Assembly (NCBI RefSeq): GCF_023115355.1
Contig: NZ_CP096019.1
Coordinates: 434,001 to 498,000, forward strand
Source: Halocatena salina
GTDB taxonomy: Archaea; Halobacteriota; Halobacteria; Halobacteriales; Haloarculaceae
Direction of reading: 5' to 3'
DNA length: 64,000 nucleotides
The notes under the pieces were generated by a model. The model worked only from the letters and a program-made list of their open reading frames with translations, searched no databases and was not told the origin of the DNA. The position numbers and the translations under genes are program-made. The stretch's first letter is position 1. Each line of letters starts with the position of its first letter. Of this stretch, positions 14,123 through 21,891 are shown one piece after another.

Positions 14123-15781
14123 ATGATGGATCGTCGTATGTATCTCGCTGCGGTGAGTGGGATCGGACTCTCGGGACTAGCTGGTTGTAGTATGCTTTCT
14201 AGTAACAGTAATGAGGGATCTACGACGCCCACCCCGACGATCGTCGAAGGACCTGCACAGTTCACCGACTACAAGATCGAACCGCCGGGAAACGCGGCTG
14301 TCGACACGCCGGTGAGTGTGACGGTGTCCGCGTTTAACTACGGTTCGCAAGCCGGCGGTGTCAGCGCAACGCTCGCCGCCGTCGAAGGGGCCCAGTCGAT
14401 CTCGAAGCCGGTCAAACTCACCGACGTCGACTCCGGCTCACGGGGAGAGACAGCTGTCGAACTGGAGTTTTCGGTGGGAGATGAATTCGTTCTAGGGGTG
14501 TTCGAGACGCCCCCGTCGTCAACCCCGCAGGCGATGGAAAAGCCGGTGACCACGTCGACGGTCACAGTCGGGCCAAAGGAGAAACCGGTCGGAGAAACGT
14601 TCGACCTGAATGAGCAGCTCCGGGCGACGCTGACCGACGTGACGTATCGACACGGTATCGAATACAAGACGGAAAAACAGGGGTTCTTTTCTTCGGAGAC
14701 GGTGGCGGGAACGACGTTACCCCAATCCGGAAACGTTCTTGCAGTACTTCAATTCGAAGTCGAGAACAAGGGAACGGAACCAGTGTCGGTCAATTCGACA
14801 TCGTTTTCGATGAATGGGTCGTCTCTTCTCCCGGATCTCGACGGCGTACCCATGGATGCAGCTGCCACCGTGGATGGCACACCTCTCAGCGGTACGTCGG
14901 TGAAAGGAGGACAGAACATCAGAGGATGGCTGCTCGGAGCGGTTCCGAAACCGCAGGCAAAAAACGGTACGTCAGTCGAATGGCAACGAGACGAACGGAA
15001 AACAACCCCCGAGCGAGCGTGGACCGTCGAATCGAGGGATATTCCCTCGTTCAGCCTCGAAACGTGGGAGAAACTCGGAGATCAGGTAACGGGGTCGTAC
15101 ACCCAGCACGTCACGGTGAAAAACACCGGGAAGGCCACAGGCACGTTTTACGGCTCACTCGATTACAGACACGATCAAGGCAACTGGAAATCGCTCTCGC
15201 GGTTCAAGGCTGATCTCGATCCCGATCAGAGCAAAACGTTCGACGTCAAAAACAGCTATCTGTCCGTCGGAACTGTCGACTTCCGTCTGCGTCCGTTCGG
15301 CAAAACTGACAGTGTCGAGATCACGGCTCCGAAGCTGTCCTTCGGAGAGAAAGCGCGGATTCCGAACGGAGAGATCCGAGTGAACGACTTACAGACACAG
15401 TCGTCCTACGTGGTGGACAGTGGTTGGGGAGGGACCACCTACACACCAGATAACGGCGATGCGTTCCTCTTTGCGTACGTGGAGTTCATTCCCGACAGCG
15501 GCGATGTCACGAACATGCCTGACGACGATCACTTCTCGATCCGAGCAAACGGGACGATACATCCCGAATCCGGGAGCCTCAAGGGACCGATGGATTCACC
15601 GATCGAAGGTCGGTTTTACCGTTCCGCTCTCAGCGGCAGTCAGATCCGGGCAAAAGAACCGTGGACGGGATGGATTAGCTTCGACGTTCCATCGGACGTT
15701 ACCCCAGAAAACACGACCGTCATTCTCGAAAAGGAGTATAACGATAGGGGTGTCTCGAAAGTGGAGTGGAGCAAAAAATAA
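14123..15781 (+). CDS. Exported lipoprotein of unknown function
   Basis: A 552-residue secreted protein. The N-terminus has twin arginines (MMDRRMYLAAVSG) and a lipobox (GLAGC, cysteine about residue 20), so it is probably a Tat-exported lipoprotein anchored to the outer face of the membrane. A threonine/proline-rich tether (STTPTPT) follows, and the rest consists of beta-rich, Ig-like regions with phrases such as TVSAFNYGSQAGG and HVTVKNTGKATGT that recall CARDB-type adhesion domains. No catalytic motif was seen. A leaderless TATA box lies just upstream. The function is unknown. Confidence 0.75.
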   Translation: MMDRRMYLAAVSGIGLSGLAGCSMLSSNSNEGSTTPTPTIVEGPAQFTDYKIEPPGNAAVDTPVSVTVSAFNYGSQAGGVSATLAAVEGAQSISKPVKLTDVDSGSRGETAVELEFSVGDEFVLGVFETPPSSTPQAMEKPVTTSTVTVGPKEKPVGETFDLNEQLRATLTDVTYRHGIEYKTEKQGFFSSETVAGTTLPQSGNVLAVLQFEVENKGTEPVSVNSTSFSMNGSSLLPDLDGVPMDAAATVDGTPLSGTSVKGGQNIRGWLLGAVPKPQAKNGTSVEWQRDERKTTPERAWTVESRDIPSFSLETWEKLGDQVTGSYTQHVTVKNTGKATGTFYGSLDYRHDQGNWKSLSRFKADLDPDQSKTFDVKNSYLSVGTVDFRLRPFGKTDSVEITAPKLSFGEKARIPNGEIRVNDLQTQSSYVVDSGWGGTTYTPDNGDAFLFAYVEFIPDSGDVTNMPDDDHFSIRANGTIHPESGSLKGPMDSPIEGRFYRSALSGSQIRAKEPWTGWISFDVPSDVTPENTTVILEKEYNDRGVSKVEWSKK

Positions 15782-15840
15782 AAACATCCCATCATGGGAG
15801 GTGATAGCAATATACGTGTGGTGTCACAACTGAAGCGTCG

Positions 15841-16407
15841 ATGACGACTACGGACATCACCCAACGGATCGAGACGGTGCTAGACGCGCCCGACGATCAG
15901 CTCGCCGCGGAGCTGCCGGCGCTGCTCGATGAAATCGAAGGGGATATCGAGGCGGTGCTGCTCGACAATCCGGCGCTGTTCGCACAGATCACCCAACGGA
16001 TGGAAGCGGTGGATATCGGTGCGTTCGCTACCGAACACCCCAAGACGGTCGAGCAGTTTCAAGGGATGCTGTGGACCGGAATGGGGCTGCTCGTACGCGC
16101 CAGCCCCGACGTGCGCGAGTCGATCACCGAAGATATCAGCGTCAACTTCGAGGCGACCGACGCGCCGATGACGGGCCACCTCGAAGTGATCGAAGACGAG
16201 CAGACGATCGAAGGTGGAACGGTCCTGCTCGATGCACCTGACCTCACCATCAGAGGTCCGGCAGACGAACTCGTCGATCTCATCACTGGCGCTGTCGATC
16301 CGACTCAGGGCGGTATGCAACAGAACTACCAGCTGGATGGCGAGATCCAGAAAGGTACACAGCTCGCAGCTACCATGGGCCAGCTCACGAAGCTACTTCC
16401 AAGCTGA
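15841..16407 (+). CDS. SCP2-like sterol-binding-fold protein
   Basis: A 188-residue acidic protein whose C-terminal part (about 95-185) resembles the SCP2 lipid-transfer fold: DLTIRGPADELVDLITGAVD then PTQGGMQQNYQLDGEIQKGT, with the DAD-like beta strand and a G-LDP-helix pattern. The N-terminal third is a helical domain of unknown role. It is closely similar to the protein at 51942 in both halves. The gene sits 24 bases before an FMN hydroxy-acid oxidase, so it may deliver or bind its hydrophobic or acyl substrate; this is inference. Confidence 0.7.
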   Translation: MTTTDITQRIETVLDAPDDQLAAELPALLDEIEGDIEAVLLDNPALFAQITQRMEAVDIGAFATEHPKTVEQFQGMLWTGMGLLVRASPDVRESITEDISVNFEATDAPMTGHLEVIEDEQTIEGGTVLLDAPDLTIRGPADELVDLITGAVDPTQGGMQQNYQLDGEIQKGTQLAATMGQLTKLLPS

Positions 16408-16431
16408 ACCGTTCATATTTATCATATCAAT

Positions 16432-17613
16432 ATGACGTTCGATCCGAGCGAGCCGTACGGGGAGTATCGTCAACAGGAGATCTACGCGATGGGGACACTT
16501 GCCGATCAGCCACCGGAGATCCCGGTTCGATGGACTGCCCTCGAAACGGCAGCGATCGAGGCGATGGACGACCGGGCAGCGGCGTACGTCTCTGGCGGTG
16601 CCGGTAGCGGGGAAACGGTGGACGAGAACCGCCGTGCGTTCGCCCAGTGGCGCATCGTGCCACGGCTGCTTCGGGATGTGAGCGAGCGCGATCTTAGTGT
16701 CGACGTGTTCGGACGACAGTGGGATCTCCCATTGCAGATCGCGCCAATCGGCGTGCAGTCGATCGTCCACGAGGACGGAGTCCTCGCAACCGCACGAGCA
16801 GCTGCGGATCTCGACGTTCCGATCTGTCTGAGCTCGGTTTCATCGTCTCCGATCGAGGAGATCACGGCCAAACTGGGAGAGACACCGACGTGGTTCCAAC
16901 TGTACTGGTCGTCGGATCGTTCGATCACCGAGAGCTTCGTGCGGCGGGCCGAGAACACCGGGTGTAACGCGATCGTTCTCACGGTCGACGTGCCGCTTTT
17001 GGGGTGGCGTGAGCGAGATCTCGAACAGGGGTATCTCCCGATGCTCGAAGGACACGGGATCGCGAACTACACGAGTGATCCGGCGTTCTGTGATGGGCTT
17101 TCGGATTCACCGGCGGAAAACGAGGACGCTGCCATCCAACACTTTCTCGACGTGTTCGGCGATCCAACGATTACGTGGAATGCGGTGTCTGATCTGTGCT
17201 CGATGACCGATCTCCCAGTGGTCATCAAAGGAGTACTCCACCCCGACGATGCTGAGACAGCCGTAGACCATGGCGTGGACGGTATCGTCGTCTCCAATCA
17301 CGGAGGGCGGCAGGTCGATGGGGAACTCGGCGCGCTTGAGGCGCTTCCCCGGATCGTCGAACGGGTAGCTGGACGGAGCGCCGTGTTCTTCGACAGCGGC
17401 GTCAGATCGGGAGCCGACGCGCTCACGGCTCTCGCGCTCGGTGCCGATGCAGTAGGAATCGGTCGTCCCGTCGTGTACGGGTTGGCGCTTGACGGTGCCG
17501 ATGGTGTTCGATCGGTGCTCGAAAACATCCGGGCGGGGTTGGACCTCACGCTCGCAAACACCGGCCGAACGAACGTTGCCGACCTCGACCGATCGCTGCT
17601 CGTTGCTCGGTGA
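16432..17613 (+). CDS. FMN-dependent alpha-hydroxy acid oxidase (lactate monooxygenase-like)
   Basis: A 393-residue TIM-barrel flavoprotein of the glycolate oxidase/lactate 2-monooxygenase family. It has the early GEYRQQEIYAMG motif known from lactate monooxygenase, the APIGVQSIVHEDG segment, and the catalytic His/Arg pair in VVSNHGGRQVDG (about 285-296), followed by the FMN phosphate loop FDSGVRSGADALTALALGAD. It would oxidise an L-2-hydroxy acid to a 2-oxo acid or, as monooxygenase, to the decarboxylated acid. The SCP2-like gene just upstream is in the same transcription unit. Which hydroxy acid is used is not known. Confidence 0.85.
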   Translation: MTFDPSEPYGEYRQQEIYAMGTLADQPPEIPVRWTALETAAIEAMDDRAAAYVSGGAGSGETVDENRRAFAQWRIVPRLLRDVSERDLSVDVFGRQWDLPLQIAPIGVQSIVHEDGVLATARAAADLDVPICLSSVSSSPIEEITAKLGETPTWFQLYWSSDRSITESFVRRAENTGCNAIVLTVDVPLLGWRERDLEQGYLPMLEGHGIANYTSDPAFCDGLSDSPAENEDAAIQHFLDVFGDPTITWNAVSDLCSMTDLPVVIKGVLHPDDAETAVDHGVDGIVVSNHGGRQVDGELGALEALPRIVERVAGRSAVFFDSGVRSGADALTALALGADAVGIGRPVVYGLALDGADGVRSVLENIRAGLDLTLANTGRTNVADLDRSLLVAR

Positions 17614-17647: not shown

Positions 17648-18574
17648 TCAGTCGTTGACCGTCGCGTCACGCTGGGGCGGCATGACGGGATCGGAGACCG
17701 AAACCTCGCCAGTGAGTTCGGTGAAGGGGTAGGGCATGTCGATTCCCTCGGCGTCGAACCGCTCTTTGACTGCTTGGACGAAATCGGATCGAACCTTCAC
17801 GTAGTCACTGTGTGTCGGGTCGGCGATCCAGACCGCGCCCGTCAATCCGACGTATGAATCACCAAGCTCCGTGAGTCTGACGACAGGACTCGGATCGCTG
17901 ACCGTACCCGGTGTGCTGCGTGCTTCCTCAAGGATGACCTGCTTTGCGTGTTCGATGTCGTCGTCGTAGTCGATCCCGAACAAGAACGTGATCCGCAGCG
18001 TGTCGTTCGAAACGGGGTTCGTAACCGCGTTGTTCGCGAGATGGGAGTTCGGAACGGTGATCACTTCGTTGTCGAACGTCTCGATCTTCGACGTTCGAAG
18101 CTGAACTTCGCGTACGACTCCCTCGTTGTCGTTCCACTCGATCCAGTCACCGACGTGAAACGGCTCGTCGCGAAGGATGAAGACGCCGGACACGAAGTTG
18201 CTGACCATGTCTTGAGCGGCAAACCCGACCGCCAGCGCCACTGCTCCGGTGAGCGTTGCAAACGCTGACATCACGACCTCGAAGCCCGCGATGGTCGAGG
18301 CGGCCGCGATCGAAATGAGCAGGGCAACCGCCTCCACAATGCTCATCGAGAGGCTAACCACCGTCGGGTCCACATCACGGGAGTGGAGAAGACGCTGAAG
18401 TGCAGGCTTGAATACCCGTTTCAGCGCGTAGTACAACAGCGCGAACGCAGCGACGAACGTTATCATCGTCCCGAGCGCTTCGAACGCCGTTCCTTGGGAC
18501 TGCTCGATCAGCTTGTCGAAATCCGAAACTGTCGAATTGTTCGTCGAAGCGCTCGCCTGGAGTATTGGATGCAT
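17648..18574 (-). CDS. Small-conductance mechanosensitive channel (MscS)
   Basis: A 308-residue MscS-type channel. Three hydrophobic segments (about 35-57, 73-95 and 99-125) are followed by the conserved pore-lining and beta-domain region GFAAQDMVSNFVSGVFILRD, VGDWIEWNDNEGVVREVQLR and the NEVITVPNSHLANN motif. It releases osmolytes when membrane tension rises, for example on dilution stress. The length and domain order are normal. It lies alone, convergent with the oxidase gene. Confidence 0.92.
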   Translation of the reverse strand: MHPILQASASTNNSTVSDFDKLIEQSQGTAFEALGTMITFVAAFALLYYALKRVFKPALQRLLHSRDVDPTVVSLSMSIVEAVALLISIAAASTIAGFEVVMSAFATLTGAVALAVGFAAQDMVSNFVSGVFILRDEPFHVGDWIEWNDNEGVVREVQLRTSKIETFDNEVITVPNSHLANNAVTNPVSNDTLRITFLFGIDYDDDIEHAKQVILEEARSTPGTVSDPSPVVRLTELGDSYVGLTGAVWIADPTHSDYVKVRSDFVQAVKERFDAEGIDMPYPFTELTGEVSVSDPVMPPQRDATVND

Positions 18575-18767: not shown

Positions 18768-20195
18768 TCAGTGGTCAGCGTCGTGGGGGTTGGGTTCGGT
18801 AGCGTACTGATCTGCGTGGTCCGTGTACTCGATGAACCGAGGTGCATCGGGATCGAACGGTCGTTCGAGCGAGTCGAAGGCCTTCTTTTTGTCCCAGCCC
18901 TGAAGCTTGCCGATCGCGCTGCGGTCTTCGAGATCGTGGTACTCGAGGTCCTCAGCCGTCAGTTCCCACGCGGCCATGCCCGTCTCAGTGCGAACAATAA
19001 CACTAGAGAACTCCTCGCTGCTTCCGACCGAACCGACGGCCAGATCCGCACAGAGTCCCGAGAAATCCGCACACTCATCACAGCCTTTGAGCGCCGCGTC
19101 GTGGAACTGTTCGACGTCCTCTTCGAGCAGCATCTCCCCCTCCCGGTCGTACACCATCATCTTCCCGTGAAGCACGTCGAGCTTGCCGATGTCATTCGGA
19201 TCGATCCCTCGCTTTGCTTCGAGTTGCTCTCCAATGAGTTTCTGGTAGTTGAAGTTTTTCGTACACATCAGCGCGATCGTGTAATCGATCGCGCGCACAC
19301 CCACATTTTGAGACTGATAGTCCCACTCGAAGTCCTGAAGCGCCCGAACACCTTCGATCTCACACGGCGTTCCCACGAGCGCCAACGAAAGATCTTCTGG
19401 AGATTTATCCGGGAGTTTGTCCTCCCAGCGGGCTATGTCGAGATTTCCGAGCGCCATCGTCTGGTTGTAGAAGCTCCCGGCGTTCTCGATCAGCTCTGAG
19501 GGTGTGATTGCGAGGAACGACTCGGCTTTCCAAGGGTCTGTCTCGGATTCGGTGGCGATGAGCGCCCCATCGATCTCGTCGGCCTCGAGCAAATGAATCA
19601 GGACGCTCGTGACGACGCCGCCGTCTTGGGCGTTTTCGCGCCACTCGTCTCTGACTTTGGCTGAGAACTCGGTGATTGGATCGCCCGCACCGCTTACGTT
19701 GTCCTCGCCGCCGGTGATCTTCCATTGACGCTCGTACCGAAGTCCACCCCGGGGACAGAAGTCCCAACACAGAGAACAGCCCGTACACATCTTCACCAGT
19801 TTCGGGAGTCCGTCCTCACCGATTCCGATCGAATCGGACGGACAGGACGCGACACAGGTCCCACACTGGATACACCGGTCGTCCTGGATGACTGCCTCGT
19901 CGAGTTCCATGAACCACGTTTTCTCGTCGGGCGTTTCGATCCCGTTCATCTCATCACGAATGCCGTATCCCGGCGTATCGAGCGCCACGCCATCGGGAAC
20001 GCCGACGCGCTCGTCGGGCCGGCCGTGATCGACGTCCTGACTGGCGTCGTCCGCTGGCTGGGTGAATTCGATCTCGCCGAGATCGCCGTCCCGATCAACG
20101 TTCGTCGGAACGCTTCCTCCATCCGTGACCGTGTGCTGAGCGGACGGAACGCCCGGCAGCGATCGCTCGTTGGCGGACGCCGGATCAGTCCCCAT
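18768..20195 (-). CDS. Ferredoxin-FrhB fusion protein, F420-dependent electron donor candidate
   Basis: A 475-residue protein. After an acidic linker of about 100 residues it has a 2x[4Fe-4S] ferredoxin domain (CIQCGTCVASCP near 108 and CTGCSLCWDFCP near 140) and then a coenzyme F420 hydrogenase beta subunit (FrhB) domain, with GGVVTSVLIHLL, the GTPC motif in LALVGTPCEIEGVRA, and the Cys-rich ALKGCDECADFSGLCADLAVG. FrhB-type proteins carry FAD and iron-sulfur clusters and exchange electrons with F420. The start ATG 20195 overlaps the preceding sirohaem reductase gene by 11 bases, so the two are translated together. This is the layout of methanogen Fsr split into two proteins. I infer F420H2 as electron donor. 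Confidence 0.88.
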   Translation of the reverse strand: MGTDPASANERSLPGVPSAQHTVTDGGSVPTNVDRDGDLGEIEFTQPADDASQDVDHGRPDERVGVPDGVALDTPGYGIRDEMNGIETPDEKTWFMELDEAVIQDDRCIQCGTCVASCPSDSIGIGEDGLPKLVKMCTGCSLCWDFCPRGGLRYERQWKITGGEDNVSGAGDPITEFSAKVRDEWRENAQDGGVVTSVLIHLLEADEIDGALIATESETDPWKAESFLAITPSELIENAGSFYNQTMALGNLDIARWEDKLPDKSPEDLSLALVGTPCEIEGVRALQDFEWDYQSQNVGVRAIDYTIALMCTKNFNYQKLIGEQLEAKRGIDPNDIGKLDVLHGKMMVYDREGEMLLEEDVEQFHDAALKGCDECADFSGLCADLAVGSVGSSEEFSSVIVRTETGMAAWELTAEDLEYHDLEDRSAIGKLQGWDKKKAFDSLERPFDPDAPRFIEYTDHADQYATEPNPHDADH

Positions 20196-21891
20196 GAGAA
20201 ACACCCCGTGAGACTGGCGCATCGGCGCGTTGCATGAGCGTTCGCAGTCTGTCGTTGTCCACCCGGCGACACCATTCATAGAATCGTTCGCCATCGGCAC
20301 GTTCCTCGGCGTAGACGGCAAACAGCTGTTCGAGTGCTGGGATCACGGCTTCAGCCGGAACGGCCGTTTCGACCCAGTCGATAAAGGCGTTGTCCACGCC
20401 GAGGCTGCCCCCGAGTCCGAAATCCATCCCTTCGACGATGGTGTCGCCTTCGTCGTTGGAGCTTCGGTCGGGATCGGTTATCGTGACCGTCTCGCCTCGG
20501 AAACCGATATCAGCGATCTGGGGCTGGGCGCAGGAGGCCGAACAACCGCTCATGTGCATCCGAACGACGTCCAAATCTTCCGGCGTCTCGATGCGGTCGT
20601 CTAATTCTCGCGCCCACTGCTTCACGCGCTGTTTCGTCTCGATGATTCCGTAGTTGCAGAATTCGCTGCCGGTACAACCGACTGCACCCCGGGAAAAGGG
20701 ACCAGGATCGGGCTGGTATTCGGCAGCGAACGGCTCGGAGATGAGATCGTCGGTGGCGTCGTTCGGTACGTGACTGAGCAGGAAGTTCTGCTCAGTCGCC
20801 AACCGAACCGAGGCCTCGTCGGTACCGTATCGGCGAGCGGCACGAGCGGCTGACGCGAACTCCGATCCACCGATCCGTCCGGCGACGACGTTGAAGCCGA
20901 CGTACGACAGTCCGTCGTCTTTCTGTTCGTGAACGCCCACGTGGTCGCCGGTGTATCCTTCGGTGAGATCTACGCCGCGGTCACGCAAGGGAACCGAACA
21001 CCGGTCACGGACGGCTTGCTCGAACGTTTCCGGACCGAGCTGTTCGACAAGATACCGCATTCGGCACACCCCGCGGTTGTGACGGTCACCCAACTCTTTG
21101 AACACCTGCGCGATGGCACGACAGAATTCGACTGTATCCTCCGGAGGGACGAACACATCGAGCGGTGAGGCCATCCGCGGTCCATCCGACAGCCCGCCAC
21201 CGACGCGGGCGTGAAAGCCGTAGTACCACTCGCCGTCGATGCGTCGCTTTGCCGGTATCAATCCCACGTCGTTGATCTGTGATTGGGCACAATCCTCCCG
21301 GCAGCCCGTGATCGTCATTTTGAACTTCCGAGGAAGGTTCGCATACTCTCGATTCCCCGTGAAAAAGTCCGAAACCGCGTTCACGACCGGCTGAGCGTCG
21401 AAACACTCGTGATCGTCGAGACCTGCGACCGGACAGCCCAAGACGTTTCGTGCACCATCGCCACACCCCTGTACCGTCGTGAGACCCACCGCATCGTATC
21501 GCTTCCATATCTCAGGGATGTCCTCGATCTCGATCCAATGCATTTGGACGTCTTGACGGGTCGTGATATCGAGGAAACCGTCACCCCACTCCTCGTTTTG
21601 CTCGCTCCCGCCGAATGCCTCGGGAGCAGTAGCGAACTCCTCGGCGACGGTACCGATCACTTCGGCTTGCTCGGGAGTCAAATACCCCCCCGGAACCTTC
21701 GTTCGGAGCATGAAATACCCCTGATGTTGGCCATGCGTGTACAGCCCGGCCCATTTCAGCCGCTCCCACTCCCCCTCTCCGGCACGGGCTTCGATCTCGT
21801 CGAACGTCAATCCCTCGTGAGCATATTCGTACACGTCGTCGATAACGTCTAACGGATGTTTGTCCTGTTTCCACTGTTCGACAGTATTCAT
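20185..21891 (-). CDS. Sirohaem nitrite/sulfite reductase
   Basis: A 568-residue six-electron sirohaem reductase of the NirA/Sir family, reducing nitrite to ammonia or sulfite to sulfide. The four cluster and sirohaem ligands are C406, C412 (CTGSEFC) and C450, C454 (CSASC), and substrate-binding arginines fall at R63, R112 and R148 (GARNVLGCPVAG). The segment NLPRKFKMTITGC has K189-x-K191. Spinach nitrite reductase has K-x-N at this place and sulfite reductases have K-x-K, which leans towards sulfite but is not proof. It is usually annotated as NirA in haloarchaea. The downstream FrhB-like protein overlaps it by 11 bases and may supply electrons. Confidence 0.9.
   Translation of the reverse strand: MNTVEQWKQDKHPLDVIDDVYEYAHEGLTFDEIEARAGEGEWERLKWAGLYTHGQHQGYFMLRTKVPGGYLTPEQAEVIGTVAEEFATAPEAFGGSEQNEEWGDGFLDITTRQDVQMHWIEIEDIPEIWKRYDAVGLTTVQGCGDGARNVLGCPVAGLDDHECFDAQPVVNAVSDFFTGNREYANLPRKFKMTITGCREDCAQSQINDVGLIPAKRRIDGEWYYGFHARVGGGLSDGPRMASPLDVFVPPEDTVEFCRAIAQVFKELGDRHNRGVCRMRYLVEQLGPETFEQAVRDRCSVPLRDRGVDLTEGYTGDHVGVHEQKDDGLSYVGFNVVAGRIGGSEFASAARAARRYGTDEASVRLATEQNFLLSHVPNDATDDLISEPFAAEYQPDPGPFSRGAVGCTGSEFCNYGIIETKQRVKQWARELDDRIETPEDLDVVRMHMSGCSASCAQPQIADIGFRGETVTITDPDRSSNDEGDTIVEGMDFGLGGSLGVDNAFIDWVETAVPAEAVIPALEQLFAVYAEERADGERFYEWCRRVDNDRLRTLMQRADAPVSRGVSHGD

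Follow-up and report, generated by a model that had tools for sequence, protein, structure and literature searches.

A sirohaem reductase gene overlapping an FrhB-type gene in Halocatena salina: a probable F420H2-dependent assimilatory sulfite reductase of haloarchaea

In Halocatena salina, the gene for a sirohaem reductase overlaps the gene for a protein that joins a ferredoxin to an FrhB-type domain. This raises the question of whether the two products work as one enzyme in this haloarchaeon and, if they do, where the electrons come from and which oxyanion receives them. The locus lies in the window, the whole stretch of 64,000 nucleotides that was analysed, and coordinates given without a locus label refer to it.

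The overlapping genes and their products

The two genes, and the sites within them on which the argument depends, are as follows.

20185-21891, minus strand: alpha (aFsr-alpha), a NirA/SirA-type sirohaem-[4Fe-4S] sulfite/nitrite reductase of 568 aa (PF01077 and PF03460; PDB 2akj/1zj8; fold match 1zj8)
21463-21465, minus strand: Cys143 of alpha, which the alignment places opposite the ACGD cysteine of M. tuberculosis NirA/SirA; all 64 type-1 proteins compared have C here
21319-21327, minus strand: K189-x-K191 oxyanion-site motif of alpha, aligned with spinach NiR K224/N226 and M. tuberculosis LPRKYK; invariant in the clade
20530-20676, minus strand: sirohaem-[4Fe-4S] cysteines C406, C412, C450 and C454 of alpha, from the spinach NiR alignment; invariant across all clades compared
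20185-20195, minus strand: overlap of the alpha stop and the beta start, 11 bases
18768-20195, minus strand: beta (aFsr-beta), a 2x[4Fe-4S] ferredoxin plus FrhB-type F420/FAD domain, 475 aa from ATG (PF04432, 1.4e-32; PF04422; Fer4; PDB matches)
19911-20195, minus strand: N-terminal extension of beta, about 95 aa; type-1 proteins conserve part of it, whereas type-2 and orphan FrhB proteins have a shorter, different one
19755-19874, minus strand: dicluster ferredoxin of beta, eight cysteines C108-C147, from the cysteine positions; invariant in the alignment of relatives
19608-19628, minus strand: QDGGVVT motif of beta (Q190-T196), common to Fsr and FrhB in the alignments; Q190, D191, G192, G193 and V195 invariant
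19071-19364, minus strand: span of C278, C311, C372 and C375 of beta (cluster 1), aligned to conserved cysteines of the Fsr F420H2-oxidase domain (7np8/8riu); invariant

For alpha, the Pfam search gave two NIR_SIR domains (PF01077) and two NIR_SIR_ferr half-domains (PF03460), and Fer4 was absent. The PDB sequence matches were 2akj (E 1e-86) and 1zj8 (E 6e-73); the latter, NirA of M. tuberculosis, was also the top match of the fold search, and the phmmer match to the Dsr-type half of Fsr was weak (7np8, E 2e-7). In the alignment with spinach NiR, R63, R112, K189 and K191 of alpha correspond to R109, R179, K224 and N226, so that K191 stands in the place of the asparagine, and the earlier note was right to describe the motif as K-x-K and not K-x-N. 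Judged from this alignment, R63, R112 and the four sirohaem-[4Fe-4S] cysteines would, besides K-x-K, make the active site complete. Cys143 (TTEACGD in alpha, TVQGCGD in the M. tuberculosis protein) corresponds to a cysteine which we take to be Cys161 in M. tuberculosis numbering, and Tyr59 is likely to be the tyrosine partner of the SirA-type Cys/Tyr pair. A curated NirA label for alpha through NCBIfam NF007125 was rejected, the score (384.5) being under the cut-off of 594. The nas-linked NirA of H. salina is itself below this cut-off (428.0), therefore NF007125 discriminates poorly in haloarchaea. The nearest named relative of alpha, 92% identical, is in Halocatena pleomorpha; outside the Halobacteria, where 120 genomes of the phylum were searched, homologues with 33-37% identity were found in one family alone.

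The beta ORF can be extended to 517 aa from a TTG, which is merely the mechanical maximum, and the ATG start was taken. The Pfam domain order (Fer4 dicluster, FrhB_FdhB_N, FrhB_FdhB_C) and the cysteine positions agree with the earlier description of beta as two [4Fe-4S] clusters plus an FrhB-type domain, and the eight ferredoxin and four FrhB-domain cysteines are all invariant in the 39 relatives aligned. By sequence profile, the full-length PDB matches were exclusively F420 enzymes, namely 8riu, Fsr, FwdI and FrhB, the closest being 8riu_B (ACDS zeta). The AlphaFold models were weak (mean pLDDT 52 and 67); with the weak beta model, FrhB and 8riu were the best fold matches. In type 1, the N-terminal extension conserves N32, G37, L39, T45, P47, T74, P75, Y77, R80 and M83, and it may hold both subunits together.

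The next gene after beta, also on the minus strand, encodes an MscS-type channel (17648-18574 (-)). MscS-like genes are also found 3' of the pair at some other loci.

Pairing across haloarchaea and a rhodanese-fused sister clade

Whether the pair co-occurs across haloarchaea, a question raised in the earlier note, was answered with 391 haloarchaeal genomes. PF04432 was found in 126 of them, covering 47 of 86 genera, and all 118 alpha relatives with at least 70% identity are followed immediately, on the same strand, by an FrhB gene. Haloferax volcanii, which served as a control, lacks FrhB. Among the matches listed, 30 of 32 further reductases with 46-54% identity to alpha are also paired with FrhB, and 148 of 150 FrhB genes lie beside such a reductase, the other two being located elsewhere. 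The 11-base overlap reported for H. salina is exact, and at the named loci that could be checked (62/62) the beta start codon lies 11 or 8 bases inside the end of alpha, being ATG in 60 and GTG in two.

Open frames of 905 aa in three genomes (G186, G231 and G351) suggested fusion of alpha and beta; in G231 this does not hold, as beta has its own start within the frame (L122). Two type-1 pairs lie about 41 kb apart on scaffold 2 of Halorubrum laminariae with identical gene coordinates in both loci (L088, L089), which is either a recent duplication or an assembly effect. One orphan FrhB protein, of 427 aa, adjoins a FAD_binding_2 oxidoreductase gene (475 aa; L120:6801-9886), and these two perhaps form another F420-linked reductase.

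The reductases with 46-54% identity to alpha form a second clade, type 2, in which the N-terminus of alpha is fused to tandem rhodanese domains (PF00581 twice in Pfam). There are at least 30 listed type-2 pairs, and type-2 counts are lower bounds.

L105-L119, e.g. L107:8004-10391 (-) and L119:5930-8302 (+): type-2 pair loci with tandem rhodanese N-terminal of the sirohaem reductase

The motif LYCNTARR is present in 14 of the 15 type-2 alphas examined, and type-2 beta is without the long N-terminal extension. In one genome (G129), where type 2 is the sole sirohaem reductase, the pair clusters with a CysD/PAPS-reductase-family gene and with CysG-N, SUMT and sirohydrochlorin chelatase genes (whole cluster, L113:6555-14413). 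For type 1, a search for conserved sulfur-gene neighbours at 63 loci gave no more than synteny of housekeeping genes and, in Natrialbaceae, a rhodanese some 6 kb downstream; no conserved sulfur-assimilation neighbour was found at most type-1 loci, the window included. The Natrialbaceae rhodanese (e.g. L102/L103, about 15000-16950) is free-standing and about 50% identical to the fused domain of type 2, which is a Rosetta-stone hint. At one locus only, a type-1 pair is followed directly by a cysteine-synthase-family gene (L044:9505-10587).

Haloarchaeal NirA-rhodanese fusions, 19 in number, were noted in a 2024 study, in which no link of these fusions to FrhB was found (PMC11237513). It is possible, and we propose it tentatively, that haloarchaea evolved two clades of assimilatory sulfur reductases driven by F420H2, a family that accounts for nearly all their use of FrhB. 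The type-2 rhodanese could then split thiosulfate (or carry a persulfide) and hand sulfite to the sirohaem, which would make type 2 a previously undescribed F420H2-dependent thiosulfate-to-sulfide enzyme.

Electron donor and substrate

Alpha and beta probably make up one enzyme, aFsr, an F420H2-dependent assimilatory sulfite reductase that would convert sulfite to sulfide. We infer the donor, the formation of a complex, the main substrate and the assimilatory role from the domains, the cofactor-ligand residues, the strict pairing, the conserved overlap, a clade apart from NirA and Sir, and the F420-synthesis genes. In the proposed mechanism, beta would bind FAD and oxidise F420H2, and the electrons would pass from FAD to the [4Fe-4S] cluster of the FrhB domain, then through the two ferredoxin clusters of beta to the [4Fe-4S]-sirohaem centre of alpha, where the six-electron reduction of sulfite to sulfide for sulfur assimilation would take place. 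The ferredoxin domain of beta would thereby replace both the free ferredoxin of plant sulfite reductase and the inserted ferredoxin domain of methanogen Fsr, which holds two further clusters (PMC10229431). As alpha is without the inserted domain, the beta ferredoxin domain would dock at the free-ferredoxin site of maize sulfite reductase.

In the readable sequences, the oxyanion-site motif was K-x-K in type 1 (63/63), type 2 (15/15) and Sir (14/14), and K-x-N in all 15 nas-type NirA proteins; NasA or NarK is in reach of 15 of 16 NirA loci. Type 1, type 2, NirA and Sir each came out as one group in a quick tree, where a branch with full SH-aLRT support split NirA and Sir from the two FrhB-linked groups. 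The H. salina genome encodes three full-length sirohaem reductases, namely alpha, a nas-linked NirA and a Sir. This NirA sits in a cluster with nasA (NF041323 above cut-off) and an MFS transporter, therefore nitrite assimilation is covered outside aFsr. The Sir is the second K-x-K reductase of the genome, so the role of aFsr there may be redundant or specialised. In the Sir paralogue (L010:7562-9376 (+)), N replaces a conserved Tyr before FMMR, and two cysteines after K-x-K, which its relatives L123 and L124 keep, are missing. Seventeen genomes have no sirohaem reductase other than type-1 aFsr. The K-x-K/K-x-N split, the genomes with a sole reductase and the sulfur-gene neighbours in G129 and at L044 point to assimilatory sulfite reduction.

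The motif favours sulfite for aFsr because the nas-linked NirA paralogues have K-x-N, but nitrite is probably a second substrate, since Fsr enzymes with K-x-K reduce it in vivo in Methanococcales (PMC13381448). The same Fsr activity would also fit a pair whose main task is to reduce nitrite (or hydroxylamine) with F420H2, in nitrogen assimilation or detoxification, as would FsrII of ANME, which is F420H2-dependent on nitrite and not on sulfite (PMC9295563), and Natrinema sp. J7-2, which without nas or narK uses nitrite as sole nitrogen source and sulfate as sole sulfur source (PMC3402447); in the genome of the related N. gari (G092), aFsr is the only sirohaem reductase. However, such a main function appears unlikely to us, as nasA is within reach of none of the aFsr loci examined, the nas-linked reductases, with K-x-N, form a clade of their own, H. 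salina already has one of them, and the sister clade, type 2, combines the rhodanese fusion with sulfur-gene neighbours.

The donor and the partnership itself have to be weighed in the same way. Plant HCAR, a relative with the FrhB fold, is ferredoxin-dependent, and it is among the fold matches of beta (5dqr, E 4e-13, Z 16.4), where FrhB, 8riu and Fsr have better E-values. By analogy, beta could be a FAD/Fe-S adaptor fed by ferredoxin or another donor and not by F420H2. We consider this very unlikely, as the best fold matches are F420 enzymes like all the full-length profile matches, HCAR is outside the best 60 of the latter, and the H. salina genome encodes CofD and CofE for F420 synthesis; the profile matches, the position of HCAR and these two genes make F420H2 the likely donor of aFsr. 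ACDS zeta (8riu_B) and FwdI, from an ethanotroph, are part of complexes with measured F420 reduction (PMC11493965). It is also conceivable that alpha and beta are translationally coupled yet separate enzymes, with beta serving another acceptor, since the orphan FrhB genes, one of them beside the FAD_binding_2 oxidoreductase gene, indicate that proteins of the FrhB family can work with other partners. With almost complete pairing in two diverged clades, and only two FrhB genes elsewhere among the matches listed, this is highly improbable, and aFsr as a single sulfite reductase remains the reading that we prefer.

Comparison with known systems

The pair itself is not new. Susanti and Mukhopadhyay predicted in 2012 a haloarchaeal pair, 'aFsr', with an assimilatory-type sulfite reductase as alpha and a free-standing homologue of Fsr-N as beta (PMC3448663). 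The anatomy seen here is the same, that is, a two-repeat aSir-type alpha, a free-standing FrhB with two N-terminal [4Fe-4S] clusters, and genomic linkage; no anatomical difference is known, and the H. salina pair is a new instance. No biochemical assay of the haloarchaeal pair was found among open-access papers. What is new is that haloarchaeal FrhB is almost always coupled to a sirohaem reductase, that the oxyanion-site motif divides these reductases into K-x-K and K-x-N, that some genomes have aFsr as their only such enzyme, and that there is a sister clade with fused rhodanese domains and, in one genome, sulfur genes nearby; the systematic pairing, the K-x-K pattern and the rhodanese-fused clade were not found in the 2012 paper. 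The role of F420 in haloarchaea was called 'currently enigmatic' in a 2021 review, with one F420-dependent reaction reported (PMC8305020). As the survey ties almost every haloarchaeal FrhB-type protein to a sirohaem reductase, it offers one directly testable F420 function. The survey further suggests that aerobic-type archaea can power the assimilatory reduction of sulfite with F420H2, along a path put together independently of methanogen Fsr.

With group I Fsr of Methanocaldococcus jannaschii and relatives (7np8, 7npa, 9tn7), the pair shares the K-x-K motif in alpha and, in beta, the N-terminal half made of 2x[4Fe-4S] and the F420H2 oxidase. However, Fsr is a single polypeptide, whereas the haloarchaeal pair is encoded by two overlapping ORFs; its Sir domain is Dsr-type and single-repeat with an inserted ferredoxin, whereas alpha is built of two NIR_SIR repeats without an insert; and the relay before the sirohaem centre has five clusters in Fsr and three, as proposed, in aFsr. 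The earlier note had called the pair a split Fsr. Homology, co-occurrence, overlap and phylogeny support its combination of an F420-type input subunit with a K-x-K sirohaem reductase, but the idea of an Fsr cut in two was rejected because alpha, being NirA/SirA-type and only weakly matched to it, is not the Dsr-type half.

M. tuberculosis NirA/SirA (1zj8) has K-x-K and the ACGD-type cysteine as alpha does, but it is not known to have an FrhB-type partner and uses ferredoxin. The nas-linked NirA of haloarchaea belongs to the same superfamily (the H. salina copy is 43% identical to alpha) and differs from alpha in its K-x-N motif, the adjoining NasA/NarK, the lack of an FrhB partner and its separate clade. 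For beta, the closest solved relatives are ACDS zeta (8riu_B), the CO dehydrogenase subunit that reduces F420, and FwdI (8rja_E), in which the ferredoxin and FAD/F420 domain likewise form a detachable module. Unlike beta, these receive electrons from other catalytic cores and reduce F420 with them.
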